Source: Neoarius graeffei
Lineage: Eukaryota; Chordata; Actinopteri; Siluriformes; Ariidae
NCBI RefSeq assembly: GCF_027579695.1
Contig: NC_083587.1
Coordinates: forward strand, 8,292,501 to 8,356,500
DNA length: 64,000 bases
Direction of reading: 5' to 3'
Within the stretch, counting starts at the first letter, position 1, and each line of letters begins with the position of its first letter. Below the pieces are notes generated by a model. That model was not told the DNA's origin, did no database searches, and saw nothing but the letters and a program-made list of their open reading frames with translations. Positions 1,675 to 63,692 of the stretch are shown here, one piece after another. Made by a program: the position numbers and the translations under genes.

Positions 1675-1726
1675 CTTGGAGGGTGGAGAGAGAGAGAGTG
1701 GAGAGTGTTTGAGGCAGAGAGAGACT
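1675..1726. repeat. GA-rich minisatellite, outer piece of left arm
   Basis: The 'gagagtggagagtgtttgaggcagagagag' type unit (written in parts: GAGAGTGGAGAGTG, then TTTGAGGCAGAG) is the same as in 13494-13658 and, inverted, 22957-23281. The Tx1 LINE begins directly after it, so this is one side of the LINE's insertion site. Confidence 0.7.
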
Positions 1727-2096
1727 TTTAGACTTCTTTTAATTACAAAATAATTCCAAGAGTACAGAATCATTTAACAATATTTACAAATGACAAATAA
1801 GTAAAATAATATTTTTTTAATTAAAACATTCAGGATAAAAGGCTCACAACTCCACCAGAGACAACACACTCTGTCAAGTTACACGTCTTCTACCAGGCTA
1901 TTAAAGTGAACAGCACCTTCCCTGAGAAAACATACAGCATCATTACAACACCATATTTTCTCAAAAGACCCAAGATCCTTCATCTCACGATAAAAATGAA
2001 AATCGATTAAAACCCTCGATTTCACTAAAGTCTTAAACACCATTGTAATGTTGTACCCTGAGTCACATTCAACTTTGTTCCTCCTGCTTACATATA

Positions 2097-3704: not shown

Positions 3705-4934
3705 TATAGCCATCTTGGCTTGACCAAGCAAAAAATTCAAAACTTGACATTTAAACCTGCGTTTCTGGCAATATTTAAAACCAAAAATAAAAATCACCAT
3801 TGAAAAACATTCATTAAAACAGCCAAATATTCTTTCCAAAAGAGAAAACAGAGGCTTCAGTCTTATACATTGCATGAAGGCATGGAAAATGGTTTCCCTT
3901 ATGCTACAAAAAGGACACTGATGATTAACATCTGGGTTTAAAACTGAAATAAAAGAATTAACTGCCACTGCCCCATACAGAATCCTCCATTGTAAATCCC
4001 CACACTTCTTAGGTAATGGTGACTTGTGAAAAGCTCTCCATTGTGGTTTAACCTGCTCTGTTACTTGTAAAACTGTACGCCAAGGAGTGTCAACTCTCTT
4101 CAAGATATTTTTTGTTCAAAACCATCACACACAGTTTATATAATGCCTTACCAGAGGCAAGGTTAGAACCAAGAAATAACAAAAGTTCAGGCTTAAATAA
4201 TGTGCCTGAGGTATCATCTACCTCTGCAGACACCGTAACATTTGGGACAGGATCAGAGTCATTTGGTGCAATAAAACCCATGGAAAAGTCAAATAACAAT
4301 CTCATTTCATCCTCTGTAAACAGATTCTTCAATTTGCCAAGAAGATGTGATACTACTCGGGTTGACCTTACTCGTAAACGTTTAGACACTTGATCAACAT
4401 TCTGAAAAGATGGACCAGCAATCTTGATTAAATTTTCCAAGGTGAGGACTTTTGCCTCACGGAGAACTTCTGTGAGGGCAGGGAAGGATATTTCAGATGT
4501 GAGATCCAGGAGGGAGCCATAAACCAAAGGCTCTTGCAACAACCAAAAAAAGGATGTGGAATTCAAGGTCCTCCCAATCTTTAACAGACTCCATACTTTC
4601 AAAAGATTGCGATAAAAAATGGGAAACTTGTTCAAGTTAAAATGATTTGGATCCATCCAGAACAAAGTCTTATCTAGATCCAGCCCATCAAAAGTCCGAA
4701 GCATGGCACAAGCTACGGCTTTGCAGCTACTGTCAACTGTTCCATTTAGTAGCCGCTGTATAAATTGTAGGCGAAAAGCAGCAGTCCTGCTCTGTAAATG
4801 AACCAGCCCGTCCCCACCTTCCTCTCTTGGAAAAAACAGTACACTCTGTGGAATCCAGTGTAAGCCATTCCAAAAGAAGTCAACCAACACAGACTGGATC
4901 TTTGCAAGTACATTAGCTGGAGGATCTATACATG
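3705..4934 (-). pseudogene. Tx1 LINE ORF2, C-terminal part
   Basis: Two overlapping minus-strand frames (4890-4090 and 4103-3651) carry the tail of the Tx1 ORF2 after the RT. The first has WNGLHWIPQSVLFFPREEGG and RLQFIQRLLNG, the usual post-RT Tx1/L1 text. The second has a zinc-knuckle-like CPFC...HAFMQC after 'KSPLPKKCGDLQWRILYG'. A frame change joins them near 4100. The coding tail overlaps the Tc1 insertion site region and ends just inside the Tc1. Confidence 0.8.
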
Positions 4935-5060
4935 CAGGGGCGTATCACCCGCGGGGGATGCGTACGTTTCATCCCCCCCACTTTTGTTGAAACACAATTT
5001 CATCCCCCGCACTTTTGTCAGATTAAAATGACATCATTATGAAAATTATACAGCTACTAT
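4729..5060. repeat. 332-bp direct repeat, left copy
   Basis: Begins ACTGTCAACTGTTCC and ends GCTACTAT. It matches 8126-8457 over the same 332 bases with only about six differences seen by eye. It holds the last 207 bp of Tx1 sequence plus the first 125 bp of the hAT element starting at 4936 (CAGGGGCGTATC). See the findings for its meaning. Confidence 0.9.
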
Positions 5061-8000
5061 CATCATCATCAGGAATCCCTCGCATTGCAAGTATGATTGC
5101 CCATTGGTCATCATTTGTGAGTCCTCTGGTGGCTCACAAGGCCGATGCGGGACGCACACAACCGTCGACAGGCCGGGCACGCGAAAGAAGTGGTCGTTGA
5201 GGGAGGAGCCCTTTCACGGGCCTTGCGGTTTTGGCGCTTCTCCTCACAACGGTCGCGTCTGGCAGACTCAAAGGAGGCAACACCCTCATGTATTTGCCCC
5301 CTCCACTTCGTGCGGTCAGAGGCAAGTTCTTCCCAGTTATCTGGGTTGATCTTACAGGCTTTCAAGTTGGCCTTGAGGTTGTCTTTGAATCGCTTCCTTT
5401 GGCCTCCAACTGATCTTTCTCCAGAGCTAAGCTCACCATAGAGGATTTGCTTTGGTAAGCACGAGCTGTCCATTCTAAGAACATGCCCTGACCAGCGGAG
5501 TTGGTTTTGAACTACCATGGCCTCTACGCTTGAGCAGTTGGCTTCCTCTAGAACGCTTGTATTGGTTCGGTGATCCATCCAACTTATGCCGAGAATGCGA
5601 CGCAAGCAGCGTTGGTGATACTTTTCAAGGGCCTTTAAATGACGCCTGTATGTGGTCCAAGACTCGGAGCCGAACAAGAGGGAGGGTAAGACCACCGCCT
5701 TATAGATCTTCACTTTAGTCTCGATGTGTATGCCTCTCTCCTCGAATACTCTCTCACGCATTCGTCCAAAGGCATAGCTGGCAACTCGTAGGCGATGCTG
5801 AATCTCATCATCGATGTTTGCTTCGACAGAGAGAATACTGCCAAGGTATGGAAAAGATTCTACATTCTCCAGAACTGTCTCGTTGATTTTAAAGGAGGGG
5901 AGGACAATCACCTGGCCGGGAGCAGGTTGGTAGAGTATCTCGGTCTTTTTCACATTGACAGACAGACCCAGCCGTTGGTATGCGTGCCCAAAGGCATTCA
6001 GAATAGCTTGGAGACTCTCTTTGGAGGTTGCACAAATGCAGTTGTCGTCGGCATATTGAAGCTCAATGACGGAAGTTGTGCGAGTCTTGGTTTTCGCTTT
6101 CAGCCTTCTTAGATTGAAAAGACCCCCATCGAAACGGTAGGTGATTGCGACTCCATCAGGAAGCTGGTCTTTCATTAACTGAAGGACAGCTGATATAAAT
6201 ATGTAGAAGAGTGTAGGAGCAATCACGCAGCCTTGCTTTACACCGGTCCGCACTTCGAACGGGTCGCTACTGGAGCAGTTGTCAAGAACTCTTGCAGACA
6301 TACCATCATGGAAGAGTTTGAGAATGTTGACAAATTTCTCAGGGCAGCCGAACTTGGCTAGGATCCTCCACAAGGCCTCACAGTTGACAGAATCGAAGGC
6401 CTTGGACAAATCAATAAAGGCCATGTACAGGGGTTGATGTTGTTCGTGGTACTTTTCTTGGAGCTGCCGAGCTGTGAAGATCATATCTATTGTTCCTCTA
6501 TTCGCACGGAAACCACACTGTGTCTCTGGGAGGAACATTTCAGCATGTGGTTGAAGATGATTCGCCATGACTCGGGTGACTATTTTGCCAGCAATGGCAA
6601 GCAGTGAGATACCGCGGTAGTTACCACACACAGATTTGTCACCTTTCTTGAAGATTTTCACAATATCTGCGTCTCGTAGGTACGGCGCTAAGACCTCCTT
6701 TTCCCAGATAAGAAGGATAAGCTTGTAGATGCAACACTCTAGTTCAGACCCTCCAAGCTTAAATACTTCTACTGGGATTCCATCGATGCCTGGAGCTTTC
6801 CTGTTTTTCATCTGTGCAATGGCAGTTCATATTTCGGAGGGACTGGGTTCTTTACCAAGCTCAAGATTGACAGTTAGCTGCTCGATCTCGTCATAGATGG
6901 ACTTGTCAACGGAAGAATCACGGTTCAGGAGCTCCCGAAAGTGCTCCATCCAGCGGTGGTTAATGCTCTTACTGTCCTTCAGGAGAGTCCCGTCTTGATC
7001 TTTAACTGCGGTTGCACCACATGAGGTTGGGCCATACGTTGCCTTGATGGCACTGAAAAGGCCGTGGGTGTCGCCTTTATCTGCGAGGCTTTGGATCTCG
7101 TTAGCCCACCACTCATTTTTTAACTTTCGAATCTGCCGCTGGACCTCAGCCCGAATGGTCTGATAGGCTTCCCTTTTGTTGTTATTCAGGGGGTCATTCT
7201 GCCAATCAGTGAATGCCTTCCTTTTCCTAGAGACCATTTCTGTGATCACCTCGTCATTCTCGTCAAACCAATCCTGGTGTTTCCGTGTTTTGTAACCAAT
7301 GGTTTCTTTGCAGCTAGTAATGATTGCTTTCTTGAGGTCATCCCAGTATTTTATAGCGTCATCACCACCTACAGAAGTAAGGGTATGACGGAGAGACCTT
7401 TGCAAGTCATCACATACGTCCGGGTCTTTAAGTCTCCCGACATCAAGCCTTCGGCGCACAAGCTTTGCCGTGTTCCGCTTCTTCCACATTAGCTGGAAGA
7501 AAAGGTCAACTCGAATGAGTCGGTGGTCAGTCCAACAGTCGTCAGCACTAACCATCGCCTTCGTTATTCTGACCTCGCTCAGGTCTCGGGCGCAAACTAT
7601 GGCATAGTCAATCAAATGCCAGTGCTTCGAGCGAGGATGTTGCCAGGTGGTTTTATACTTGTTTCTCTGACGAAACATGGTGTTGGTAATAACAAGCTGG
7701 TGCTCGGTGCATAAGGTGGGTAGCAGTGTGCCATTAGAGTTGCAATTTCCAACGCCGTCTTTACCGATTGTGCCCCTCCAGAGCTCGTTATTTCTGTCTA
7801 CCCTGGCGTTGAAGTCTCCAAGGAGAACGATTTTGTCCTCTTTGAGAGTTTTGGTCAAGATTGAGTCCATGGTTGAATAGAATGCTTCTTTCACCTCGTC
7901 TTCAGCGTCCAGGGTAGGTGCATATGCGCATATGATGGTTACATGCTGGCTGCTGGACAGGGTTAAACGTAAGGTCATAATACGTTCATTTATGCCTTGT

Positions 8001-8125
8001 GGAACCTCGGTGAAATGATTGACGATGTCATTCTTAATGGCAAATCCGACGCCATGAATCCGCGGCTGTCCTTCGGGTCTGCCTTGCCAAAAGAAGGTAT
8101 AACCTCCACCAGCCTCCTTAAGCTA
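5061..8125 (-). mobile_element. APE-type LINE with C-terminal C2H2 finger, 5' truncated
   Basis: The minus-strand element begins inside the endonuclease domain at 8125 and ends at 5061 with a short (GAT)n-like tail (CATCATCATC on the plus strand). It is 3.07 kb and bordered by the 332-bp direct repeats. The order is APE endonuclease, RT, and C-terminal zinc finger. The RT text (SKAFDSVN, GVKQGC, YADDN) belongs to the I/Nimb- or RTE-X-like LINEs common in fishes and molluscs. I cannot fix the clade by eye. It is little decayed. Confidence 0.85.
5111..8125 (-). pseudogene. LINE ORF2 (endonuclease-RT-zinc finger), one stop
   Basis: One frame runs from 8125 to 5111, broken only by a single TGA around 6824-6826. 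It starts inside the endonuclease (KEAGGGYTFFWQG), then IICAYAP, LLGDFNARV and a terminal TDHRLIRV, which are APE motifs. The RT follows: KNRKAPGIDGIP, GNYRGISLL, FIDLSKAFDSVN (motif A), GVKQGCVIAPTLF (motif B), LQYADDN (motif C) and the LGSILS region. The C-terminus is a C2H2 finger, CPACRRLC...HQRTHK. The N-terminal residues of the endonuclease are missing through 5' truncation, the normal outcome of target-primed reverse transcription. Confidence 0.88.
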
Positions 8126-8457
8126 ACTGTCCACTGTTCCATTTAGTAGCCGCTGTATAAATTGTAGGCGAAAAGCAGCAGTCCTGCTCTGTAAATGAAC
8201 CAGCCCGTCCCCACCTTCCTCTCTTGGTAAAAACAGTACACTCTGTGGAATCCAGTGTAAGCCATTCCAAAAGAAGTCAACCAACACAGACTGGATCTTT
8301 GCAAGTACATTAGCTGGAGGATCTATACATGCAGGGGCGTATCACCCACAGGGGATGCGTATGTTTCATCCCCCCCACTTTTGTTGAAACACAATTTCAT
8401 CCCCCGCACTTTTGTCAGATTAAAATGACATCATTATGAAAATTATACAGCTACTAT
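8126..8457. repeat. 332-bp direct repeat, right copy
   Basis: Begins ACTGTCCACTGTTCC and ends GCTACTAT, copy of 4729-5060. This copy runs on without a break into the rest of the hAT element, so it holds the original continuity. Confidence 0.9.
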
Positions 8458-9566
8458 AAAATGTGTAACAAGGAAGTAAACTATTGCCATAATGTTAGAA
8501 AAAAACAGCCACGCAACGGACTCAAAACAGTTTTTCTCACCCGACCAATCTAGCGTGCCGAAAGCGCTCAATAATACAGTATCTGTCTGCAGAGCTGCAG
8601 AGCCAACACCAGTTTTACCGCTCCTGATTCACCGTTCCAGGTTTGACGGCGCATGCGGTGCTTACTGTGCCTGGCTCTGCGGCTCTGCAGACAGACCCTT
8701 CTCAAAGCGCTTGCAATGCCGTCATTCAAACAGTTGTCCCAGATGCCATGCCCTAAAAGATTGTGTTAATTTCCATAGGACTATTAATGCTGTCCTCTTT
8801 TGTCGTGCAATATTGACAAGGATGCAGAAAAGGAAAAGGCAGGGGACGATTGACTCCTTTTTCAAGAAGACCCAAGTAAGTTGACTATATTACCCCTGCG
8901 CCCACAGGCTTGCAAACGTGCCACTACTTTGAGTAGCCTACTGCTCAATCACTCAACCACTGCACTCATTTCAAGATCGAGGATCCGTGGTGCACCAGTT
9001 TTATTTAAGGCAGTATTGATTGAAATGCTTAATGTTAGTAGCATACTAGCCGTCTAGAGAGAGAGAGGCAATATTAGCTATGCTAATGTGACTTGTGTCG
9101 ACTCGTGTGTTTATCAAACATTGAATGATCTATACACTGTGTATGACTTTTTGGGCTATGTGAAATTTTTGGTTTTGTTTATCTCAGTGTATACCAGTGT
9201 CGGCAGCAATACTGACATCTCTGTTATAGAACAGTATCCTGTTACCTAGAATTATCACTCAATACTTTTTCCCTTCACTTACTGAATAATTACATAGCCC
9301 TGGCAGTAACAACACCAAAACCCAACATGATAGATCTCTGCATGAAATGCAGAACTTGGCTGGAGTCAACTGGATTTATAGGCTTTCTGCTGTCCTCCCT
9401 TTCATTTGCATCCATGAACCATGGGTATGAAAAAGTTCCATATCGGTCATTGACAGTACATCACAGTGTACACGCCGGGCGTGGATATAGCCATAAACCG
9501 ATTTCTAATGATATGGCTTCCCCATTCCAGAACACTCCCACTTTTGGAAAGCTTGATACGCCCCTG
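8332..9566 (+). mobile_element. hAT transposon, internally deleted
   Basis: The ends are inverted, CAGGGGCGTATC at 8332 and GATACGCCCCTG at 9566, with an exact 8-bp duplication TATACATG on each side (8324-8331 and 9567-9574). That is diagnostic of hAT. It is 1.2 kb against about 3-4 kb for autonomous elements and keeps only a first coding exon. It is inserted in ORF2 of the Tx1 LINE. Its first 125 bp are duplicated at 4936-5060 by the APE-LINE event. Confidence 0.95.
8822..8876 (+). pseudogene. hAT transposase, first exon only
   Basis: ATG opens MQKRKRQGTIDSFFKK, a basic start of the kind seen in ZMYM/hAT-Ac-like transposases (K/R-rich, then TIDSFF). A good splice donor, CCAA|GTAAG, follows at about 8877. 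No BED finger, DDE or dimerisation exon is found before the right end at 9566, so the rest was lost in the internal deletion. Confidence 0.6.
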
Positions 9567-9574
9567 TATACATG

Positions 9575-12063
9575 CCAACCGGTGCCAGAGGGATGATGCT
9601 ACCAGGTTGTTATTTATGAGCACTCTCCCTCTATAAGACAAATTATTCATTAAAAATTCCCATCTAGTAAGACGGCCTTTAACTTTTTGAATAACACCTT
9701 CAAAATTTTTCAGCATAAAGTCGTCATTCCCAATAAATACCCCCAAATACTTAAACCCATCTTTGGACCAAGCCAGATTCTCAGGTAATCTGGGTGAACC
9801 ATCATTCCAGTTCCCCATCAACAAAGCCACAGTCTTACCCCAGTTAACTTTGGCAGAGGATAACATTCTAAAATCATTAAATACTCTCAACATGGCATCC
9901 ACATCCCTCTGGCTCTTAACAAGTATTGCCACATCATCAGCATAAGCTGATAATTTAAAAGTAAAAGTACACTTTTGGATCTTTACCCCTTCTATGTCGT
10001 TTCTCAGCTTTACCAAAAGTGGCTCTATTGCTAGGGAATACAATATACCAGACAGGGGGCAGCCTTGTATGATGCCTCTGAAAACCCTAAAAGGAGCAGA
10101 CAAGTCACCATTAACCTTTAATATGCTTTCAATGTCACGATATAAGACTTTTATGTAACTAATAATACCAGGATTAAAACCAAAAGCAGACAGAACATTC
10201 CATAAATAATTATGTTCAACCCTATCGAAAGCTTTTTCTTGATCAATTGAAACAAGGCCAAAATCCAAGTTCAGGCGCTTTCCAATGTCAACAATATCTC
10301 TGATAAAACAAATGTTATCGTGAATTAACCTGCCAGGCACACAGTAGGTCTGGTCAGGATGAATGACCTCTTCCACCACTTTGCTAAGCCTATTGGCTAG
10401 AACTTTAGAGAGCAACCGGTACTCAACACATAGGACAGAGATAGGTCTCCATGATCTAATGTCACTGAGATCCCCCTTTTTTGGCAACAGCGTTATAACA
10501 GCTCTCCGACAACTGTGAGGCAGCCGCCCATTGGCCAAACTGTTACTCAGAACCTCTAGCAAATCTGCACCTATTTCAGGCCAGAAAGCTTTGTAAAATT
10601 CAACTGGTAACCCATCAAGCCCCAGCGCCTTACCACCCTCCATATTTTGGAGGGCAGTAGTCAATTCCTCAAGGGATAGCACCCTTCCAAGGTCTGTATT
10701 GGCTGTGCTGGAAACCTGGGGTAGATTCTTCAGAAAACCATTGTCAGGAACCTGCTCATAAGTGATCTCACTCTTGTATAAGTCCTTGAAAAAGCACTGT
10801 GCATGCTTTCGAATGTCTGCATTTTCAGACAAGAGTGTGCCATCTTCTGAGCGCAAGGCTTGCATCAGCCTTTTCTGATTATTTTTCTTTTCTAAATTAA
10901 AAAAGAATTTAGTGGGTGCATCCATAAGTTCAATCGACTGAAAACATGACCTGACCAGAGCTCCTGTAGCCTTGACCCCCATTAATTCAACCAGTAAATT
11001 CTTTTTGCTTTTAAAGTCTCTGTTACATTATTTGTCATATCTGACACCCCTTGAAGTTTCAGTATCTCCTTTTATAAAGTTACCATTCGATTGGAGATGT
11101 CTCTCGTGACATTGAAGCTGTATTGTTGGCACAACATCTTTATTTGGACTTTGGCAAAGTCCCACCACTGTTGTATTGATTTAAAAGAATACTTTGTAGT
11201 CTTACACTGACCCCAAAAAAACTTAAAAACATCACTGAAATGAGTGTCTTGCAATAAACTGGTATTTAAATGCCAGTAGGCACTCTTTGGTTTTACAGTA
11301 CTTATAAATATTTTACATGTTACCATACAGTGATCAGAAAAACCAACAGGAACAATATTGCAGCTTCTAAAAAAGTTGAACTGGTGCTTGAAAACATAAA
11401 GTCTGTCCAGCCTTGCCAAAGAAAGCATGTTATTATAAGAGTGAACCCATGTGTATTGCCTCTGAATTAAATGGAAGTTCCTCCAAATATCTACAAGATT
11501 GTACGCTTTTAAAATTTCACATATTTTTTACGAGAAGGCATGTGAGCCTCTATGTGATTATGATCCATACCATTCTCAGTACAGTTAAAATCTCCCCCAA
11601 TAAGTAAGGTGTCTTGGCAGTCACAGGTCTTAAGTACACTTTCTAGAGTTTGAAGAAAAAGCATACGCTCAGTGCCATTGGTAGGTGCATACACACAAAC
11701 AAAAACAAAAGGCTTGCTATCATATAAGGCTCTTACTTTTAAAAGTCTGCCTTTAATAATTTCGTCAACTTCATAAGAACATGGAATGAAATCACGACTA
11801 AACAGAATGCCAACACCCCCACTATTAGAGGTGTTGTGACTCAAAATTGTGACACCAGTAAACTCACTTGCCTAGTCCGCACAGTTACTTGTATCTGTGT
11901 GCGTTTCTTGAACAAAAGCAATATCAATTTTCTTTTTTTTAAGGGTTTCAAAAACAACAGCTCTCTTATTACGGTCTCTTACTCCATTTAAATTTAACGA
12001 AGCAATTAAAAATTCACACATAAGAAAGTATAAAAAATTAAACTTGGTACGCATGATAATCAT
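9575..12063 (-). pseudogene. Tx1 LINE ORF2, endonuclease and RT part
   Basis: The start near 12063 reads EFLIASLNLNGVRD and then IAFVQETHT, the first APE motifs. 11844-11509 carries GGVGILFSRD, VCVYAPT and LIGGDFNCT. 11428-11072 carries the SDH region (GFSDHCMV). 10982-9575 is one long open RT frame: GLDGLPVEFYK, SWRPISVL, VSIDQEKAFDRVEH, GIIQGCPLSGILYS and SAYADDVAI, with an intact YADD. Several frame changes and stops separate these blocks (between 12063 and 10982), so the ORF is dead. The hAT insertion at 9567 cuts it from its C-terminal part at 4934-3705. Confidence 0.88.
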
Positions 12064-12077
12064 AAAGGCTAAAGAAG

Positions 12078-13304
12078 TTACGACTGACTTTTAGCGTCAC
12101 TGTCACCTAGATGAACATTTAGCTTAGTTAAAATCTTCTTTAAATGGTAACCCTCCTGATCAGTAAATCCTCCCTTTGACATAAACAGTTTTGTCTTAGC
12201 AATGAACTGTTCAACATCTGCAAAAAAATCAATCTTGACATTTCTAGCATGTTTCGTTTTAAACAGAAAACTTTTAATATCTTCGACAGTATAATTCTGT
12301 TGAGAGAAACCACTTGCGCGTACACTACAGCTGACACTGCAGTCTGACGCATAATCACTTTCACTCTCAGCATCCGACACTTCAATTGAAAGACTTTTCT
12401 TCTTCGCTTTTGAACCCAAGTGGGCTCGACCCCTTTTCTTTGACGGTATTTTAAAAACACTCTCAGTTTCCGTAGGAGGATGTTGTTCTCCAATGACTTC
12501 ATTAAAGATCTGCTCTGCCAAATCCGAGCTACTCTGTGAATCCGTGGGCATTTCGGCCTCAGCGCTTGGATCTGTTGGGGCACCATCTGATGTCTCAACC
12601 TGATCGGAAGCCTTTTTTGCTCCTTGCATCTCACCTACACTGTCCTCGACTGTTTCATCATTGTTAGCTGCTTCCTGAGACTGTTCTTTACTGGGGATAC
12701 CCTCAGTAGAATTCTCATCATTGGTCCTAGTCTTTTCTGGACAGCTTCGCGCCAGGTGCCCCAGCTGACCACATTCAAAACATTTAATAGTATTAGTGGT
12801 TACGTAAATCATATAATTGAAATCATCCACCTTAATATTCAAAGAAAGCTCAAGTTCTTTACTGTCTTTCAAGATAATGTAGGCGAACCTTCGGAACGAC
12901 ACTACATGCTTTAAAAGCGGAGATTTGGTAGCTATCGGTATCATTTTCAAGGGAGATACTAATTTTCCATAACGTGATAGGGCCTCTGCAAGCACATCGT
13001 TTCCAATGAATGGGGGGACATTAGAAAGAATTACCTTCCTTGAAGGGCTTGCCAAAGGTAAAACAGGAATAAACACCTCGTCAATGTATAACCCCAATTC
13101 CACCATGTCATTTACCAAACTAACCTCGGAAAGGAACAACACCACTCCGCTGTTCATACGAGATGCCGATGAAATGTTATCATGACCAATGAATTCACTG
13201 ACAGCTAAGCTGATTTTCTCGACAGAGAAAGGACTATCCAACTTAATACCATGCCTCCTTGTGAGGTAGCCAAAATGCTCCTTGTGTCTACCCTCAGCAG
13301 CCAT
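12078..13304 (-). CDS. Tx1 LINE ORF1 protein
   Basis: 408 residues, intact frame from ATG at 13304 to stop at 12078, directly upstream of ORF2. Residues about 1-180 form an RRM-like nucleic-acid-binding region (KVILSNVPPFIGND). A single CCHC knuckle, CFECGQLGHLARSC, follows at about 190. Then comes an acidic Ser/Glu-rich linker with a basic patch (KKRGRAHLGSKAKKK) and an amphipathic tail. This is the standard ORF1 plan of Tx1 elements, the RNA-binding partner of ORF2. It is the best preserved part of the LINE. Confidence 0.85.
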   Translation of the reverse strand: MAAEGRHKEHFGYLTRRHGIKLDSPFSVEKISLAVSEFIGHDNISSASRMNSGVVLFLSEVSLVNDMVELGLYIDEVFIPVLPLASPSRKVILSNVPPFIGNDVLAEALSRYGKLVSPLKMIPIATKSPLLKHVVSFRRFAYIILKDSKELELSLNIKVDDFNYMIYVTTNTIKCFECGQLGHLARSCPEKTRTNDENSTEGIPSKEQSQEAANNDETVEDSVGEMQGAKKASDQVETSDGAPTDPSAEAEMPTDSQSSSDLAEQIFNEVIGEQHPPTETESVFKIPSKKRGRAHLGSKAKKKSLSIEVSDAESESDYASDCSVSCSVRASGFSQQNYTVEDIKSFLFKTKHARNVKIDFFADVEQFIAKTKLFMSKGGFTDQEGYHLKKILTKLNVHLGDSDAKSQS

Positions 13305-13493
13305 ACCTCCAAAAAGGAAGCAGATGCCTTAGGTAACAAACAAAATTCAGCAAACTATTAACACCAACTCACAAAAACACCATACAAGGATAGAAAAAGA
13401 GAGAAAAAGTTTGGGGCACAGCGGCCACAAACTTCCAGCACTCACTCACACACGCTCCGAACCCACCCACTCGCACCGCATATGCGCAACGAG

Positions 13494-13658
13494 AGAGAGA
13501 GAAAGAGAGAGAGTTGCAGAGAGAGTGGAGAGTGTTTGAGGCAGAGAGAGAGAGAGAGAGAGAGAGTTACAGAGAGAGAGAGAGAGTTGCAGAGAGAGTG
13601 GAGAGTGTTTGAGACAGAGAGAGAGAGAGAAAGGGGGGGGGGAGAGAGAGAGATTTTT
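13494..13658. repeat. GA-rich minisatellite, left arm
   Basis: Tandem copies of a unit of about 75 bp containing GTTGCAGAGAGAGTGG and AGAGTGTTTGAGGCAGAG, separated by GA runs, then a poly-G run. The inverse is seen at 22957-23281. The first part (GAGAGAGAAAGAGAG then AGAGTTGCAGAG) matches the outer end of the right arm exactly when inverted. Confidence 0.85.
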
Positions 13659-13721
13659 CAGTGCGACCGGAAGGCATTTCAGTGCGACCGGAAGGCATTT
13701 AACTGGATCCGGAAGGTTCAC
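13659..13721 (+). promoter_or_regulatory. Three tandem 21-bp iterons (left end)
   Basis: Two identical units (13659-13679 and 13680-13700, core CAGTGCGACCGGAAGGCATT) and one diverged unit (13701-13721). The same three-unit block lies inverted at 22894-22956. Tandem, inverted subterminal units like this are typical transposase binding sites; that role is inferred. Confidence 0.75.
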
Positions 13722-14014
13722 TGTGTTTATGTGTATGCCTGTATGGTAATTTTTCAAATCTTTCATCCGAGAGTCAAGGAATTGTGACTTTCAGTTTAAA
13801 TTTTGTGTAGGTAAAAAGTAACCGAACTAAGTGGAGCTCCCTGAACCGAAATATTTATTTTTTCCAAATAATGAGAAGATTTTGGCACTCGCCATTGAAG
13901 ATCTACATCCGTCCAGTTGGTGGCGTTAATGATTTATGTTTGGTCCAAACTGCCAAAAAAAACGAAAAAAAGTTTTTGGGCGCGGGATGTTCGTCCTCAT
14001 TTCCTTGCACCACA

Positions 14015-17000
14015 ATGGAAGAAGCTATTGGGATTTTGCGAAACATCTTGGGTTCACCAGCTATAATTAACTCTATTTCAAATGCCATCAGCACAGCGCC
14101 TCAAGTTAATTCTACTGGAAGTGTTAATGCGCCACAGGTTACTTCTACTCCCAATGTTAATGCCGAGATAAGCAATTTGTTTAGACCAGACAGAAATGGC
14201 GCTAGTTCTACATCCATGCCATCAACAACTTTGGAGACTCCCAGGTTCCAAGCCAGGTGTTTTAGCAGCTGGAATTCAAGAGGAAAGGGGAAAAAAGGTA
14301 AGAACATCTGTGTCATTCAACAGATTTTTCAGCAGCTTTTGAGCGCAAGGGTGTGCATTCAAACGCCAGGGCAGGGCTATAGCTAAAATTGCCCAGTAGA
14401 GTTAGCCATGCTGAAGATGTTACACTTAACACTGACCACGGTTACATATATCCTACATGCAGGGAATATCCTGGTTTTGAAATGAGAAATAAGGTCAGTT
14501 GTCAATTTAAAACAAGCTCTGGAATATTCCGTAAATGCGTGGAAGAGTGTTGTGCTCCCATGTGTCTCGGAATGAAGAGAGTTTTTCATGTCTCGCGGAC
14601 AAAAAAGCTAATGCAATCTAAAACAGAGTTCCCTGTCAGTCAGATATCTTGCCAGTCCGACATTGTCGTCTAATTGTCGGAGTCGCTGCATTTCGTTAAA
14701 CGTGCATACACTCCAACAGCCTTTTCCCCCCTTAGTCGGAATGGCTTTCCCCAGCATCTCGCTATTTCAACACACAGTTATAGTCACAGACATATAAACA
14801 TAGACGCCGCCTTCCGCATAGAATCATATGTCATCCTCACCGCCATATTGGATGTGGCAAAGTGGAGAATAAAGATGCCTCATTCATGTGCTGCGTTTAA
14901 CTGTACCAACAGGTTTACCGTCCAAACGAGATCACATGGGATTACCTTTCACAGGTGAGACTGGAAAAATACTTTTCATTGTATTTGGTCATTATAACAT
15001 AATTTTACGAACAGATTTTTCTGACTTTTGGCTAATATGAAGTCTCGCGCATAATAGCCGCTCAGTGAAACCTGTCTCCAAACAACGAATATAATATAAT
15101 TTATTTCATAGCCCACCCAACCAATTTCACCACCAGCTGTCAGATGGTGATGGCACACTCAAAAATAGAAGAGATTGGAAGCATGTCAGACTGTGAAGCA
15201 ATCACATGGAGCAATCCCATTGTAATATGGTTTAATTGAATTTTTTCCATATAGCACTGTATATTGCAAAAATTGTTTTTGGAGACATTTTATAGACTAT
15301 CTGCACGGCATTTAATGAAAGTGATGCGCAGACAGCACGGCACGGCTTCAGCAGCGTAAGCACAGCACATTATTCTACACGATCCCTGCTGAGCTCCAAA
15401 ACATGCCTTGATGTGTAGATATCGTTAGTAGCCTACGATAGTAGCAGTGGAATAAAAAAAAAAAAAAAAGTTTCCGATAGCCTGATTCCGGTACAGGCCT
15501 GCTACATATTGAGGAAATTTAGGTCACACCTCCCACGGAATATTGACTGGTATTTCGCACACTATTTATAACCATCACATTAAAAGTTATATGTGTTGTT
15601 TTGATGCCTGTTTGTTTCCCAAATATATACGTGTGTGTCTTAATGGGTGAATAAAAGGCATCGAGTTAAATATTATTGTAGAAAGGGGCTTTATGAAGTT
15701 CAGTCCATTTACTTGCATCGGTTTACAGGGAAGATTTGCCACATCAAATATGGCGGACACTCTGACGTATCCCAGCAACAGGCCACCAGCTCAATGCGGC
15801 ATCTATGTTTATATGTCTATGGTTATAGGCCTATATGCTCCACGTAAGTACGTGAGCTGAGGCGTAATCTTTAAACAGAAACACCAAGCACCGTTAAAAT
15901 GCAGTCTTTTGTACGTGCATTAAGTCTACCTGAGGACCAAATAGTTTTCTTTTGTACTGAAATACTTTTCATTTAAGTAGCTAGGCTGAGACAAACATGC
16001 AACAGCATGACTTAATGTAGCCAACTGTTGCATGGCTGCGTCCATCATTGATAAAATGTTTTCAAGGTATGCCTCTCCTCGAATATATTTCAGTTCATGA
16101 TTTGAGAAATGTGGACGGTATTTGTGTAACCGTGGTCATTGTTAACAATCAAATCACGCAGCATATGCTGCTCATGGTACTATTGACGTTCGTTTTTGTC
16201 ATGCTGCCTGAAATATGTTGACATTCTGTTCTATATATTTTTTTAAAGAACAACCCTGGCAATGCACAAGACCTTCAACAAGGATGTTATTTTGCTGCCT
16301 TCTGCACACCATAGCTGTGTTGTGAGACACGGCACAAAATCAAAATTACACCAGAAGGGATACATTCTAAATGCATTTGAATTTGACAAATCGTGGGACA
16401 GCACAGCTGTAATCAACAAACTACGACAGGCATTCAGGTCCAAAGTATGCCTTCCTGATAATGTAAGGTAAGGACTGTAGTTGATAAGAGTCCATGGCGT
16501 TTGGCATCAGTTAAACTAAACACGTTTACATACATTTTTGAAATTCAACTTATTTGGCTCCTGATATAAAAGGCTCCTAATGTTCTGATCAGATGACAGC
16601 AATGATGAATTATGTGCTGTGTTTTCATGTTGCATCATGAAACTGTCTTTATCTACTTCAGCTTGCAAATCCTTATGCCCTGCGGGAATAAGCTGGTTGC
16701 TCCATCACTGTGTGACGGTCAGAAAATGGACGCAATCCTCATTCAGAAAGTTTTCAAAAGGGCATCTTTATATCTGAGGCCATCTGTATCACTTGAAGTA
16801 AGCATGCTGTCCTCGAGTCATTTTGCTTCCATTTTTATAATCATCTTGTTTGTCTTCACACTTTCAACCTACATAAATGATTGTTTGTCCTCAAGTGTGT
16901 GAGTGCTGAGACCTCAGAGGCGGAGGACAGCCTCAGTGAACATGACATTGTGATGGAGACGAGTGTCACAGAGACCCCTTCCTGCAATGTTACTGCACTG

Positions 17001-17985
17001 CATTCTGCCAGCAGCCATCATGAAGCACCACACCAACAACCACTGGCAAGTGGCCAGGCTAGACTCAGCCCAGAAAGTGACTATGGGACATATGTAAATA
17101 TAATTGAAGATTCTGAGGAAGAGGGTGAATTGTTAAGTGCTATTGTAGCCAGCCTTGAAGACCAGACGTAAGTGTATCAGTACCTTTATCTAAACCTTTC
17201 CCTTTGTGTCTAAACTGAACAAATTCCAAGTATTGTAAAATGTTTATTTATGAATGAAATATTGTATTACATTCCACTGTGAGAAACAGCTGGCTATAAA
17301 TGTGTTTGCACTATGTTGTTTCCTCTCATTTGAAGGCACCCTAAAGAAGATATCCCAGTCAGTCAAATTTTGAGGGAATTGGCGGAGAAAATTGACAGCA
17401 ACAGCAGTTGCAAGTTTAACATAAATCGTTCCTGTGTCCTTGATGGAGCTATGCGGGGGTTTAGAAGGTTGACATTCAACCCCTGTAATACTTTGAGTGT
17501 GACATTCTCCGATGACAAGGGGACAAGTGAAGAAGCTGTAGACCTTGGGGGGCCGAGGAGAGAATTTCTTCGGCTGCTTATGGAAGCACTGTCTTGGTCT
17601 GAGATGTTTGAGGGACACGAAGGCCACCTTCACTTGGCTCTGGATTTCAAAGGTTTGTTTACTGTTATGTAGTAATGTAGATACATTTAAGTGTTTAAGC
17701 TACTGCTACAATAGTCATACTTTACAAGTGATCTGTACTTTCTGTTCTTCCTCTAGCTGTACGTGAGGACCGATATTTTTATGCTGGTACAGCCATCGCG
17801 CTCAGTTTGGTGCTTGGAGGCCCACCACCTTGTTTCCTATCCAACACCCTCTTCACATGCATCGCAGAGGGACCAGACATGTGCAAACCAGAGCTTGACG
17901 ACATTGCAGATGGTGATCTGCGTGAAAAGCTAAGACAGGTCTGTGTGTGTGTGCGTGGGGGGGGGGCATTACTGACTGAGTGAGC

Positions 17986-18063
<78 letters not shown>

Positions 18064-20729
18064 ATGTCGTGGGCTGAGCGTGTAGGGAAGAGTGTGGGCT
18101 GAGTGTGTGGGGGGGAAGCATGGGTTGTGTCTGTGTGATGGGGAGAGGGGTCTCTCGGGGCTGCCATCTCGGTAATTAGCATTGAACTGTAATATCAGGG
18201 TAGGGGTGTTGAGGAGTGACACTAATACCCACACACTGATTCTTATATGTACACTCCTCTCTCTCATAAACACTTTCTTTTGTCTCACACATGGGTGATT
18301 AAATTATACACACTGCACAATGAAGCCGAGTACTAGGGTTGTGAGGATCGTGATTCTTATGATGGTAATGTTTCTTTATGCGCTATTCCACAGGTCTCTC
18401 AAGCCAGGACTGTAGATGAACTGAAGCTGTCGGTTGAGCCAATGGGCGACTATTTAGCCACCGCTGGCTGTTTCAGGATGTTAACTTCGTTGACAGAAAA
18501 ATACCAATTACTGGAAGACATCCTCATGTTTCACATTGTGCACCGCATCCGGGCACCCTTTGAAAAGTAATTTTGTTGCGTATGGTAATACTGTATAATA
18601 ATAACACATGGTGCAGGGTGTCTGCGGAGTCTTAATTTGATTATTTCCATCCAAGGTCTTAAAAAGCCTTAAAGGACAGTTTCGGCCAATTTCAACATGC
18701 AGTTGTATTGCTCACGCTACCCTTGACTTGTCAGTACCAAGAGACGTGGTATTTTTTGGTTCAGCTCTTTCCGATATCCTAGCACACTAACTGGGGGAAT
18801 GTGTTTGTTTACATATTGTTTGAAACCTCTTAACATACTCCAAATATTATCCAAAAATGTATGCAACATGAACAGACACTATACAACACAGCACTAACTT
18901 TTGGAATGATCTTTGGAGTATGTTAAGTAGTTTCAAACAATATGTAAACAAACACATACCCCCAGTTAGTGAGCTAGGATATCGACAAGGGCTGGACAAA
19001 AAATGATGTGTCTTCGGGTACTGACAAGTCAAGGGTAGCATGAGCAATACAACTGTATGTTGAAGTTGGTCAGAATTGCCCTTTAAATACAGACAAATTT
19101 TGCACTGTTGGTCTTCAAGACTAAAATCCTGAATAAACTAGCACTTCCAATGCATGGTTCTTTGTCTTTCCTAATTCCTTGGCTCACCTGTGCCAGTTAG
19201 CCACCAGGCCAGGTGGACTGTTAAGCAGTTCAAAACATGCAGTTTCATGGATAACAGCAGGTGTCGTAATACAAAATATCCAAATATGGCTCTTACACTC
19301 ATGTCATAATGACATAATGTGGCCTTGAAAGTAATTCTGGGTCTGATTGTCCTTATTTTTTGTACTCTGTGAAGGTTTTGAATTTAACCAATAATGGTCT
19401 TAAAAAGGTTTTTAACCAAGTCTACAATTTCACTTAAAACCTGCAGAAAAACTTGTGGGAAAGTAAGGCCATTTATATTTCTGGACCTTCTCAAGCCCTG
19501 CTAGCTACGAGTGCTTTACTGAGACTGAAAAAAGACGAAGAGACTTCTGTGGTATTAAAATGTTTTTTCTATACAAAATCTTGGGTTTAGATTCAGAGAT
19601 GGGCTGAAAACCCTGGGTGTCCTCCAGAAGATCCAGCAATACCCAGAGGCTTTCCGTCCACTGCTCTGTTACAGTCCGACTCGCCTCACAGCTGAGACTC
19701 TGGATGAATTGTTTATAATCAACTGGTCAGAGACCGGAAGCAACAAGAGAATGGCTGAGAACAGGATTGTGGCATTTTGGAGGGACTTTCTTCAGGATGC
19801 TCAAGGTGAGTGGAATTTGGTTGTTAATGGTTTCAAAGGTACCATATGTCATTGTGTGACACTGGACTATGGGAGGTCAAAATAACAAGCATTAAATAAA
19901 ACGTTCATTACAAAGCAAAATGTCAGTCATATTACCTAGTATCAAATTTAAATCTATCAACAGTTATCAAATATAAACTAATTTAAGTTTATTTAAATTC
20001 TATTTGAAGTTGAATTACTTTAAACTTTAAATTAATTAAATAAGTGGACTTTAATTAGGCTTATACACTACATTTCCCTGTTTTCATTTTGAATGAGATA
20101 TTTAAACCTCATGTAATTTCATGTGCCACCATTCAATTCGAATGTGTTTATTTTTAGAAAAATATTTGCTTTTAAGTTGTACTTTCACCTATCAATCATA
20201 CTCTGTGACCGTCATCCTCCTGACTGGGTTAAGGCCATCTAGTGGGGCAGTAATTGATTGCTTTGTAATGAACTTTTTATTACATTTTTGTTACTTTGAC
20301 CTCTCATACTAGACTGTATTCTTCCATTCTCATACACAGTTTCTCTCTAGTCTGACCATAATGTGAATTATTTTTTAATTTTTTTTGCTGGTTAATATAA
20401 GGGGCTTTTAATTATTTTCTCTACACAATTGTTTGTGCTCTTGAATGCTGCCATTAATCTTGTTGCCTTGTTTTTATTGTTATTATTTAACAGAGGACAA
20501 CAGAACAACATTGCAAAGCATTCTGACTTTCACAACCGGGTCCAATGTGGTGCCACCAATGGGTTTCTCCCCTCAGCCCTCGTTAGAATTTCTGCACACT
20601 GGAGGCAAATATCCCATTGCAAATACTTGCATTAATTGCTTACGCCTGCCCCTATACATGGAGTATGAAGCTTTTAAGGAAGCAATGGACTTTGCTATCA
20701 GAAACACTCAGGGGTTTGGCATGGCTTAA
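14015..20729 (+). CDS. HECT-domain E3 ubiquitin ligase, G2E3-like (9 exons)
   Basis: Exons by splice sites: 14015-14297, 16249-16467, 16662-16797, 16896-17167, 17336-17652, 17757-17938, 18394-18566, 19591-19805, 20494-20729. Exons 2-9 join in phase with no stop. The join of exon 1 (MEEAIGILRNILGSP) to exon 2 is out of phase, so a small exon between them is probably missed. The product is about 675 aa. The N-terminus is Ser/Thr-rich and basic; exons 2-3 carry FNKDVILLP and KLVAPSL; exon 4 is acidic. Exons 5-9 form a whole HECT domain with catalytic Cys in NTCINCLRLP (codon 20628-20630) and a short GFGMA tail. Fish genomes annotate many such proteins as G2/M-phase-specific E3 ligase-like. Known HECT chemistry is ubiquitin transfer through that Cys; the substrate is unknown. 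It lies inside the proposed transposon, tail to tail with the integrase. Confidence 0.85.
14785..15821 (+). mobile_element. P-like THAP transposon, internally deleted
   Basis: The ends are inverted: CACAGACATATAAACATAG at 14785 and CTATGTTTATATGTCTATG ending at 15821, with further inverted similarity inward (CCGCCATATTGGATGTGGC against GCCACATCAAATATGGCGG). It is flanked by GTTATAGT / GTTATAGG, an 8-bp duplication with one difference, as for P elements. It lies in the first intron of the HECT gene. Only one coding exon is left. Confidence 0.75.
14875..14954 (+). pseudogene. THAP-domain first exon
   Basis: MPHSCAAFNCTNRF...GITFHR is the N-terminal half of a THAP (C2CH) zinc finger, with its first two Cys and the F-H turn, followed by a donor AG|GTGAG at 14955. 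The rest of the THAP domain and the transposase are absent from the element. Confidence 0.7.
17943..18062. repeat. (GT)n microsatellite in HECT intron 6
   Basis: Interrupted GT runs, the longest about 17989-18061. The intron continues with G-rich sequence to the acceptor at 18393. Confidence 0.9.
18673..19082. mobile_element. Palindromic MITE with TTAA duplication
   Basis: Nearly the whole 410 bp is one inverted repeat (AGGACAGTTTCGGCC... and ...GGTCAGAATTGCCCT), flanked by TTAA on both sides (18669-18672 and 19083-19086). TTAA duplication with an AGG-type end suggests a Kolobok-type MITE; piggyBac also uses TTAA. It lies in intron 7 of the HECT gene. Confidence 0.75.
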
Positions 20730-21207
20730 GTGGGTGTGTCTAGTTCTTAAAAGCAGTGGCAGTATTTTGGCCAGGTTTATGATTTGTATTACATGCAATA
20801 CATTCATGGTTCATGATGTTAATTTTGGCAAAGCTTGTCATTGGAGGCACTTTTGTTTGTATTCTGTTTGACTCAGGGACAGTTTTATTCAACAAGCACC
20901 ACATCATGTGTGCACATTTACTGAAATGTTCCAACTTTCAAACCTTGTTTACCAAACTGGTTAGTGTAAGGGTTAAAGTCAAGGCATTTTCTAGTATACA
21001 TGGGGGCAGCAATTCTAAACACCTTACTCTTGCACTTCTGCACTTATGGCAGTGCTTCATGTTTTTACATGGATGTGTGTGATGTTTGCGACCTCATTAT
21101 ATTCACAACATGTAACATTTCATTTTATTACAAGAGGGTTGACTTTTTAAACAATAAAATGAAATGAAAGAAAACAGTTTTTAATTCCTAATAAGACTCA
21201 TGTTTTA
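20730..21207. other. Convergent 3' ends of the two element genes
   Basis: Only 478 bp separate the stop of the HECT gene and the stop of the integrase gene. It holds likely 3' UTRs: an AATAAA near 21152 on the plus strand. No further exon is seen. Confidence 0.5.
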
Positions 21208-22839
21208 TTATCTAGTTTCCAAGAAGTTGACAAGGGTAACAAATAGATTTATTCCATAGTTTCCATCTTCCCCCAAAGGATCAATTGTGTGACGGATTTC
21301 TTCCATAGTAGTGTCATTCACATGAAAATCATTATCTGGAACTTCTACGACACTGCTGAATCGAAGTTCAGGAGGTGTTTCACGGTAGGTGGTACCTTGG
21401 GATTCAAGAGGTGCAAAGACATCTTTGACCCCTGTGATGTCCTGGCCTATATGCCTGATGATACCACTGAACCACAGCTGGAGTGGTGTCCTGTACCTTT
21501 CAGTTGACAAAGCGTGATTATTCCATTGATTATGGAACTCCCTCGCAGCCCGTTGTATTCGTGGTACATAAATGTAGTGAAGTGCGAACATGTGTAGCTC
21601 CGACAATGAGTCAAGGTAGTTTTGGTTCTCCATAAAGGTGAAAAGTTCAACATAAAAATACGACACAACATGATTCAACTCAGCCCATAGTCGTTCTGCT
21701 CTTTGGTTATGCACGCTGCGGCCTGCAATGACACTTCCCTGATGGAACCCCCTTCTGTTCAGCATGAAACGCGCAACCTCCAAGTTTTCAGTTCCATGGT
21801 CACACCGGACTCTTGATGGAAGCTCAAAGTTGTGCACCCCCTCTTCAAATAGCATCAGCACACTAGAACCTCTATTATTTGTTAAGCAGTCTAGGTATAT
21901 AATGGTGCAGCTATATCCATCCACGCATCCGTGGAACACCAATCTCCAATGAATTAATTTGTGGTTAGAATCAATGTGCCTGCAAATAAAGATAGCAAGG
22001 GGAAAAAGTATCAGTTCAATGCATGGGGCAAATTTCTTGGGTAGGTATCATATGGGCACACTAACAGGCCTAGCGCTGTCATTACAATAGTAGGCTTAAA
22101 AATATAGTGGTGCTCACCATAACTCATTCGGACCACAGACATAGTAGGTCCTGCGGCGAATGGCCTGTCGGTGACGTACACATCGTCCCACCGGGTCAAT
22201 TGCTTGTAGAGCTTCTCGCACTCTCCTGCGCTGGATACGAATCCCCATGTGCCGCAGACTGCCCCGTACATAGGTCTCACCAGCATTCGGCGTAGTTTCC
22301 AATACGTGTCTGATGTTTGATATTAAATTCTCCCGAGACAGTTGAGCATATTGAAGAGGTGGTACACCCAGGCGTTGTCGATGGCGGTACAAAGTCCATC
22401 GCCCAATGCCAAATAGTGAGGCTATTCCTTGCCAGTTCAGCCCAAGACCCAAACATAACCCTATCTGTTCTGTTGTCAAATCGTAGCGTGGGCGACCTGT
22501 TCTGCTTCTGTTGGTAGGGGGTACGATGGCAGCACTTTCTCTCGGAAGTTCGTCATGGAACCATTGCAGAACAGCAATTATCCACTGATGTAATTGTTGT
22601 AGTAACATTGTGCACTGTTTTTCCTCCAAGGTATCACGTTGTCCTACAATGTCTGTGATGTGAAGTATTATTCTGGCATGGGCTTCAAGTTCATGAAAAC
22701 ACCTTACAGTCGGATTTACTTGCATTCTTTCAAGGCAGTGTAGAACGCGCGAAAATATATCAATAACATCTTCGTTGTTTGAACTAACTAGTGAAATGTG
22801 ACATGTGATGAAAATGAGTATAATTAACAGTTTGTGCAT
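21208..22839 (-). CDS. Integrase-like DDE transposase with HTH (2 exons)
   Basis: Exon 1 is 22839-22118 and exon 2 is 21979-21208, with a 138-bp GT-AG intron; they join in phase to 497 aa without a stop. The N-terminus starts with a hydrophobic stretch (LLIILIFITCHISLV) that looks like a signal but is probably not the functional start of a nuclear enzyme. Residues about 120-170 are a helix-turn-helix (IGLCLGLGLNWQGIASLFG, then IGRWTLYRHRQRLGV), followed by a second basic winged region (RRRVREALQAIDP). The rve-type core begins at the exon junction: LWHIDSNHKL (first D), VRCDHGTEN (second D) and HNQRAERLW (E), spacing D-34-E. The acidic triad is thus complete. The next gene is the HECT ligase, tail to tail; the iterons begin about 55 bp upstream of the ATG. 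It looks intact. It probably cuts and joins element ends; that is inference from fold and context. Confidence 0.88.
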
Positions 22840-22893
22840 TATATTAAACTTCGGTCGGTCCTAGACTGTACTTCCATGTACAATGAACCTGTA

Positions 22894-22956
22894 TGGTGAT
22901 TTCCTGACGTACTGAAATGCCTTCCAGTCACACTGAAATGCCTTCCGGTCGCACTG
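22894..22956 (-). promoter_or_regulatory. Three tandem 21-bp iterons (right end, inverted)
   Basis: Units at 22936-22956 (identical to the left unit), 22915-22935 (two differences) and 22894-22914 (diverged). Same order and distance from the GA/CT arm as on the left, in inverse orientation. Confidence 0.75.
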
Positions 22957-23070
22957 GAAGATCTCTCTCTCTCCCCTTTCATTCTCTCTCTCTCGCTCAG
23001 CCACTCTCCACTCCCCCTCCCTTTCTTTCTGTGTCTCTGTCTCTCTCTCTACCCCCTCTCTCGCTCGCTT

Positions 23071-23104
<34 letters not shown>

Positions 23105-23281
23105 CTTGTCCACTCCCCCATCCCCATCCCCCCCTTTCTCTCTCTCTATCCTATACCTCTCTCTCTCTTTCTCTCTCTCTCTGCCTCAAACACAATCCAC
23201 TCTCTCTGCAACTCTCTCTCTCTGTCTGCCTCAAACACTCTCCACTCTCTCTGCAACTCTCTCTCTTTCTCTCTCTCTCTC
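22957..23281. repeat. CT-rich minisatellite, right arm
   Basis: Inverse of the left arm: CTGCCTCAAACAC and CCACTCTCTCTGCAAC units between CT runs. It is longer than the left arm. The outer limit, CTCTCTCCATGCACTTG, is where similarity to the left arm stops. Confidence 0.8.
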
Positions 23282-23464
23282 CATGCACTTGTGTTCTTCT
23301 ATGTAATTCCACAGTGTGGAGACAAATAAAGGAGACAAGGCTAGTATTCCAGTGTGTTTTGGCACCCATAAATATATAGGTGAAAGTGTTTTTTTCAGTA
23401 TGGAGAGAGAGTTTCAGTGGGGAGAGGAGAGAATTCCAGTGTGTTTCGGCCTGAACGGCTTCTC
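23282..23464. other. No gene; short repeats
   Basis: Two copies of TTCCAGTGTGTTT(T/C)GGC at about 23349 and 23434 are the only structure seen. Confidence 0.4.
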
Positions 23465-23800
23465 ATATTTGTAATATTATTTATACCACTACTGCCTAGA
23501 AAGTGTCAGACACTCAGTGTATGAAGTAAAATAAAACTGGTTAGAGCCAACTGACGGTTTAAAAAAAAAAGAACAAACTCCGACGACCGGCAGAGAGAGG
23601 GAGTGTGTGTGTGTGTGTGTGTGGGGGGGGGGGGGCTTAATTTGTAATACTTATACCACTACTACCTTTATTTTTACATGAATTACAGCAAGAAAGTGTC
23701 AGACACTCAATGCGTGAAGTCAAAAAAGCTGTTTTTAACCGATGGTTAAAAAAAGAAAAAAAAATCTCCGACAGGCAGAGACGCAACGCAAGTTGCTTTC
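23465..23800 (+). repeat. Duplicated block of about 165 bp upstream of LINE ORF1
   Basis: Both halves (23465-23630 and 23635-23800) contain TTATACCACTACT, AGAAAGTGTCAGACACTCA and a GACNGGCAGAGA word. The position directly before ORF1 fits tandem 5' UTR monomers of a LINE, though an unrelated repeat is possible. Confidence 0.5.

Positions 23801-58657: not shown

Positions 58658-63692
<5,035 letters not shown>

Follow-up and report, generated by a model that had tools for sequence, protein, structure and literature searches.

A probable two-gene DNA transposon of the IS3EU/GingerRoot kind in Neoarius graeffei that pairs an rva_4-type DDE integrase with a convergent HECT ubiquitin ligase

IS3EU/GingerRoot transposons have been reported to possess TA..TA termini, to produce 6-bp target duplications and to encode an integrase-like DDE transposase without the HHCC motif found in retroviral integrase, and Repbase held 45 IS3EU families in 2022 (PMC10045372). 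Some fungal IS3EU families carry additional TET/JBP and alpha-kinase genes, the alpha-kinase gene being opposed to the transposase gene, and the TET/JBP gene is said to aid escape from silencing (PMC12730594). HECT, ubiquitin and fish go unmentioned in the available main text of the first source, as do HECT, ubiquitin and ligase in that of the second. Here we describe a locus in a 64,000-nt stretch of the Neoarius graeffei genome (NC_083587.1, positions 8,292,501 to 8,356,500; hereafter the window), which we hold with high confidence to contain an IS3EU/GingerRoot-type DNA transposon with two genes, one for an rva_4-type DDE integrase and a convergent one for a HECT ligase. The window is part of contig C20 of this 2.34-Gb fish genome, and C1, C2, C5, C9, C16 and similar labels denote other contigs of the same genome. 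No report of an integrase-HECT pairing was found in the literature searched, as far as the text of the sources was accessible, and Repbase or Dfam entries could record it. The features of the element are as follows, in window coordinates.

1682..1722 (edges approximate): residual piece of the left GA arm beyond a long interspersed nuclear element (LINE), where the arm sequence resumes
1723..13490 (edges approximate), minus strand: LINE with nested insertions in the left arm (Pfam zf-CCHC and RVT_1)
13491..13558: left GA arm, its outer side broken by the LINE (from complementarity and the LINE reading)
13656..13718, plus strand: left iteron block, three 21-bp units, the third decayed (motif search)
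14015..14297, plus strand: candidate HECT exon 1 with ATG, beginning MEEAIGILRNILG, whose phase does not match that of exon 2 in the window copy
14783..15822: insert in HECT intron 1, absent from this place in the other four copies
16249..16467, plus strand: HECT exon 2 (this and the following exons from splice-join reading)
16662..16797, plus strand: HECT exon 3
16896..17167, plus strand: HECT exon 4
17336..17652, plus strand: HECT exon 5
17757..17938, plus strand: HECT exon 6
18394..18566, plus strand: HECT exon 7
19591..19805, plus strand: HECT exon 8
20494..20729, plus strand: HECT exon 9 with the catalytic Cys codon at 20628-20630 (also from the motif)
21208..21979, minus strand: integrase exon 2, rva_4 DDE core (D at 21970-21972, D at 21799-21801, E at 21694-21696)
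22118..22839, minus strand: integrase exon 1 (splice-join reading), with a hydrophobic leader and, by eye, a helix-turn-helix-like region
22897..22959, minus strand: right iteron block, three 21-bp units, the third decayed (motif search)
23212..23279: right GA/CT arm, 99% complementary to 13491-13558
23280..23467: subterminal segment beyond the CT arm, found again, inverted, at the end next to HECT in the C1, C5a, C5b and C16 copies
23444..23467, minus strand: right terminal inverted repeat tip, TATGAGAAGCCGTTCAGGCCGAAA inward, at a boundary common to the C1, C16, C5a and C5b copies

HECT exons 2-9 (plus strand, 16249-20729) were joined at GT..AG edges into 582 open residues, which matched Pfam HECT (PF00632) at E=7.9e-19. 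The two integrase exons (minus strand, 22839-22118 and 21979-21208) likewise gave 497 open residues with GT..AG edges and a match to Pfam rva_4 at E=2.9e-79; the DDE triad is D244/D301/E336, with 34 residues separating D301 and E336. Outside both genes lie the arms, 68 nt each, and the iteron TTTCAGTGCGACCGGAAGGCA, which occurs at 13656 and 13677 on the plus strand and, with one or two mismatches, at 22939 and 22918 on the minus strand (four matches in the 64-kb window versus none in 100 shuffles). A decayed third unit was located inside each pair (13698-13718 and 22897-22917). The original prediction, made from the letters of the window alone, had described inverted GA-rich arms, inverted triple 21-bp iterons, two convergent multi-exon genes open across their splice joins (HECT exons 2-9; integrase exons 1-2), the DDE triad and the HECT catalytic Cys, and each of these was borne out, the iterons as two clear units and one decayed unit per side. 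Its span of 13494..23281, with the GA arms enclosing the element, had to be revised, the real right end being 23467, 188 nt beyond the arm.

The ends were mapped by aligning the window with other iteron loci of the same genome. The GA arms were considered as termini and ruled out, because homology continued past the right arm and stopped at the shared boundary 23467 in four copies (C1, C16, C5a and C5b); the right terminus reads TATGAGAAGCCGTTC inward. The 24-letter tip was found at nine places in the genome with at most two mismatches, and a reversed-pattern control was found at none. By their flanks these nine places were assigned to C20 (the window), C1, C5 (two kinds of flank, two places each) and C16 (one flank, three places). 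The C16 tips in loci L032 and L033 were accompanied by no further element parts in the 9.9 kb fetched. At C5, one kind of tip was preceded by GCTCTT and the other by its complement AAGAGC, and the two kinds flank an inversion with a breakpoint inside a LINE. They were therefore read as bounding a single insertion flanked by a 6-bp target duplication. The left tip of the window copy was not found in the window with up to three mismatches, so its target duplication is unreadable.

The element fits IS3EU/GingerRoot because of its TA..TA ends (TATGAG..CTCATA in the window family and TATGGC..GCCATA in a diverged group of the same genome, group B below), the putative 6-bp duplication, of which there is one clear case, and the lack of an HHCC motif, which was absent before the core in all 16 integrase-type proteins checked. 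All three DDE motif patterns were present in 14 of these 16 proteins, the exceptions being P0289 and P0292. These ends and the duplication support the filing under an IS3EU-type superfamily that had been suggested beforehand as a possibility. The available text on the fungal families (PMC12730594) describes extra genes, 6-bp duplications and an alpha-kinase gene opposed to the transposase gene, all of which resemble the arrangement here, and ends of the form TAYGG..CCRTA, which group B matches with its initial TATGG and the window family, with TATGA, does not. The cargo differs: it is a TET/JBP dioxygenase and an alpha-kinase in the fungal elements and a HECT ligase here, and a HECT gene likewise distinguishes the present element from IS3EU/GingerRoot as characterized in the accessible text of PMC10045372. 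Ginger1, Ginger2 and retroviral integrases have the DDE integrase core in common with these proteins, and PF00665 was called on many relatives; the retroviral enzymes differ in their HHCC motif. A search of viral contigs with the integrase gave no match, and records near this genome may be excluded from that collection.

The integrase N-terminus (22780-22839, minus strand) contains a hydrophobic, signal-peptide-like stretch, MHKLLIILIFITCHISLVSS, which is odd for a nuclear enzyme. Among 30 proteins of 440-530 amino acids, the window integrase included, 11 exceeded a hydropathy threshold of 1.9. Hydropathy peaks were 1.41-2.86 in 15 of them (the window protein and 14 fish proteins) and at most 1.05 in the other 15, including the fish protein P0316.

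The four insertions (C20, C1, C5 and C16) have one terminus in common and differ in their immediate flanks. Iteron matches were found 13 times in the genome, in five copies (C5a 4, C5b 3, C16 1, C1 1, C20 4). HECT exons were present in all five, and both genes in C5a, C5b and C20, so that 11 of the 13 matches lie beside both genes. In the stretches fetched, the C1 copy was cut in HECT exon 6 and the C16 copy after exon 7. It had been suggested that the two genes spread as one element, and that iterons found mostly without either gene would speak against this; the genome search did not find such a pattern. Spread as one element is supported by the single terminus in four insertions, by the three copies with both genes and by the group B pairs lying between tips. 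If the copies were instead segmental duplications of one locus, flanks directly outside the tips would be expected in common. This holds within C5, where C5a and C5b form a segmentally duplicated pair with long common flanks, and within C16, where three tips have one flank; in addition, stretches 81-83% similar are present in the C5 and C16 flanks from about 500 bp outside the tips, the 40 bp next to the tips being different. Against it, no flank is shared directly outside the tips between C20, C5, C16 and C1, which have the same terminus, and in group B the C9 and C2 copies stop at the same tips and differ in their flanks on the HECT side. Segmental duplication without transposition is thus considered very improbable.

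The same gene pair was recovered well beyond the window family. Of 12 further integrase loci, 11 have a HECT gene, which was read directly as a convergent downstream gene in ten (L034-L037, L038, L039, L041, L043, L051 and L052); in L042 no HECT was present in the 3.6 kb read, and the genome search placed one 4.3 kb away. These loci form at least four further groups, namely group B (L034, L035, L037-L039 and L043, fragments of its DNA being present in L040 and L042 too), group C (L036), group D (L041 and L052) and group E (L051). Compared with the window, loci L034-L037 showed 47-57% identity in the integrase core, 39-42% in the first exon and 29-57% in HECT segments; the HECT matches in L036 are abutting N-terminal and C-terminal pieces. 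Counting the window family, the pair has thus been conserved in five or more diverged groups within this genome, and the pairing is old. Two group B copies, at about 32419848-32432951 on C9 and about 23271288-23283072 on C2, carry 21-bp arrays and TATGGCATGCCGTTC tips at either end, with both genes between the tips, and the tips at both ends of these copies read TATGGCATGCCGTTCAGG. The tips of the window family and of group B both fit TATGnnnnGCCGTTCRGG. In the C9 copy the inverted repeats align over 1,479 columns at 92% and consist partly of a 21-bp unit, which forms an array of 48.5 units in L046 of group B compared with three units per side in the window family. An apparent duplication in C9, ATATAT, lies in low-complexity flanks within an AT-repeat and is weak evidence. 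No tip was found in C9:1020500-1023500 (L050). Group E carries a different type of HECT, which matches a Dissostichus model, P0058 (46%, E=1.6e-19). P0058 itself, which has HECT followed by integrase in one protein, was considered as an instance of the same pairing and rejected, as its HECT differs from that of the window (31% over 94 residues).

For the genome-wide comparison, profile searches gave at least 156 integrase (PF24764) matches, with 150 of 752 candidates scored, and at least 88 HECT matches, with 75 of 178 candidates scored; the best 40 integrase rows (at least 102.4 bits), the weaker ones being set aside, were compared with 34 HECT rows representing 28 clusters, the remaining HECT rows falling in these loci as well. 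A listed HECT match lay within 12 kb of 17 of these 40 integrase rows, two of which are the duplicated C5 copies, and in all 17 the genes are convergent and 0.7-4.3 kb apart. Pairing was seen in 17 of 23 rows above 140 bits and in none of the 17 lower rows. Both protein types are abundant in fishes, as had been stated at the outset, with many fish members in both families, and two unrelated multigene families could then come to be adjacent by chance. Uniform placement, however, predicts 0.011 pairs against the 17 found, all of them convergent, and this genome-wide count refutes chance adjacency, to which we assign practically no probability. Seen from the HECT side, an integrase lies within 12 kb of 17 of the 28 clusters; a further cluster represents the second half of C5a, and another two belong to the cut C1 and C16 copies. 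For mobile elements of this kind, the HECT ligase appears to be a regular component.

Several results weigh against this reading. Eight of the 28 HECT clusters (C1:15.12 Mb, C4:19.89, C8, two on C12, C18:26.72, C21:26.85 and C28) have no integrase nearby among the matches listed, and 23 of the best 40 integrase rows have no listed HECT partner. Four of these 23 loci were read; L041, L051 and L052 contain a divergent HECT and were counted as unpaired because it is not among the listed matches, and L040 (C24) has no HECT in the 3.5 kb read, making it the one exception among the 12 loci. The GCTCTT duplication at C5 has to be read across an inversion. When HECT exon 1 is read to its donor, its phase does not fit exon 2 either in the window or in C1; the exon is 98-99% identical in the four other copies, and its length is in phase in C5a, C5b and C16. 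The ratio of non-synonymous to synonymous substitution (dN/dS) between the window and C5b was 0.61 for HECT and 0.78 for integrase, and between the window and C5a 0.47 and 0.64; for HECT it was 0.49 between the window and C16, 0.28 between the window and C1, and 1.19 between C5b and C1. Stops interrupt the integrase in the C5a and C5b copies and HECT in the C16 and C1 copies. When the window proteins served as queries, stops appeared in the C4 pieces (two in integrase, one in HECT) and in one integrase piece of C10, and none in the aligned pieces of C9 and C5D; further copies contain stops as well. The weak constraint among recent window-family copies is expected if most are dead copies, and the selection tests are uninformative. 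Finally, P0227, a G2E3 relative outside the aligned rows described below, has no Cys at the aligned place.

The HECT domain of the window protein resembles that of vertebrate G2E3, and the Sorex protein P0224 is 41% identical over 62% of the query. They differ in that P0224, P0227 and P0232 carry the extra domains PF13771, PF26054 and PF13832; only PF00632 was found in window exons 2-9, and the exon 1 frame had no Pfam match. In a midpoint-rooted tree of 45 rows, the window HECT grouped with six fish proteins (support 100/99), apart from the G2E3 clade of P0224, P0227 and P0232 with P0209 (99/98). In an alignment of 48 relatives chosen from 118 HECT hits, the catalytic Cys shows no variation; the HECT motif as written was found in 85 of the 118, all 85 with the Cys, and 33 hits lack the motif. 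The AlphaFold model of a relative, P0121, had a mean predicted local distance difference test (pLDDT) score of 75.8, with most of the HECT part above 90, and this model, which is of the relative and not of the window protein, has a complete two-lobe HECT fold matching the HECT of Rsp5, Smurf and Nedd4. We infer that the HECT gene may have been derived from G2E3, and the fish proteins annotated as G2/M phase-specific E3 ligase-like are relatives of the window HECT. The ligase could be regarded as a passenger, a host gene captured once that hitch-hikes without a role in transposition. The weak constraint (dN/dS 0.47-0.78 against the C5 copies and 1.19 for HECT between C5b and C1) and the fact that G2E3 is the closest of the named cellular genes hit agree with this. 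On the other hand, pairing and orientation have been kept down to the identities given above for integrase cores and HECT segments, and the Cys is retained both in the 48 rows and in every motif-bearing hit. We consider a passenger improbable and the ligase likely to be needed for the element's success.

Taken as a whole, the data are very probably best explained by a two-gene IS3EU/GingerRoot transposon, whose HECT ligase would act on a protein that limits transposition. By analogy with DDE transposases, the integrase would bind the iterons and tips, excise the element and join it to the target with a 6-bp stagger. The HECT ligase would take ubiquitin from an E2 enzyme onto its conserved Cys and pass it to the transposition-limiting protein, most likely a host factor for silencing or repair. 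A host protein rather than the transposase itself is favoured because the fungal IS3EU TET/JBP gene is said, in the text available, to aid escape from silencing (PMC12730594), and by this analogy a host target may be put at slightly short of an even chance. The chief rival is that the ligase acts on its own integrase, either removing it after strand transfer or limiting its dose, as a built-in regulator. The convergence of the genes in 17 of 17 paired rows and the fact that both genes differ between groups would agree with such a partnership, and we know of no host target, which also counts for it. In L051, by contrast, a related integrase has a HECT partner of another type, which means that the pairing is not tied to a single ligase, and action on the integrase is held to be rather unlikely.

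Gene identifiers in other fishes point the same way as the pairs in this genome. In Scophthalmus maximus, LOC124850944 (integrase) and LOC124850943 (HECT) both carry a longest contig figure of 24,998,336; in Triplophysa rosa, IRJ41_020987 and IRJ41_020994 both carry 103,140; and in Misgurnus, LOC129423984 and LOC129423994 are close in number. These neighbouring identifiers and equal contig figures, which are not DNA evidence, suggest the same gene arrangement. Whether HECT is an obligatory second protein of the whole vertebrate integrase-type branch, kept for disarming host restriction or repair, with most fish G2/M ligase-like genes borne by transposons, is in our estimate evenly balanced.

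Other repeats are present in the window. The LINE at about 1723-13490 (minus strand) contains a CCHC open reading frame (12078-13328) and a reverse transcriptase (9447-11027), and is presumably L1/Tx1-like. The CCHC frame beside the left arm was considered as a third gene of the element and ruled out, since the 3' part of the LINE and the far arm lie beyond it. The same LINE is found inside the arm of the C5 insertion, and in both places it lies in GA/TC repeat, the 5' end abutting the arm and TC repeat coming after the 3' end; the LINE may target TC-rich DNA. Within it, at 2093-3708, are 218-bp perfect inverted repeats and a 232-aa frame, Tc1-like by eye. The insert in HECT intron 1 has inverted ends near ACATATAAACATAGA, TTATAG at either side and a THAP-like frame by eye, and may be a non-autonomous P-type element; C1 has fragments of a related insert close by. 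Further to the right, direct repeats of 82-95% identity (25793-29416 and 36676-40690, about 11 kb apart) lie inside what is, by eye, a LINE-like stretch, and this stretch follows a GDSL-lipase frame at 24392-25000. An 84-bp tandem array at 60945-62588, similar to 58729-58851, lies beside a 635-bp inverted repeat of 95% (58890-59524 and 60371-61005).

Signals named g2e3 in fish studies may be transposon copies. The gene appears in a list of B-chromosome genes from Astyanax (PMC7976721), and a G2E3 match was reported for the unclassified repeat elements of Cottus (PMC5638112). We infer that both signals could represent this transposon. If the proposed reading is true, an enzyme of the ubiquitin system would be a core part of a cut-and-paste transposon and would offer a route to the host proteins that restrain such elements, and many uncharacterised HECT and integrase genes in fish genomes would be explained.

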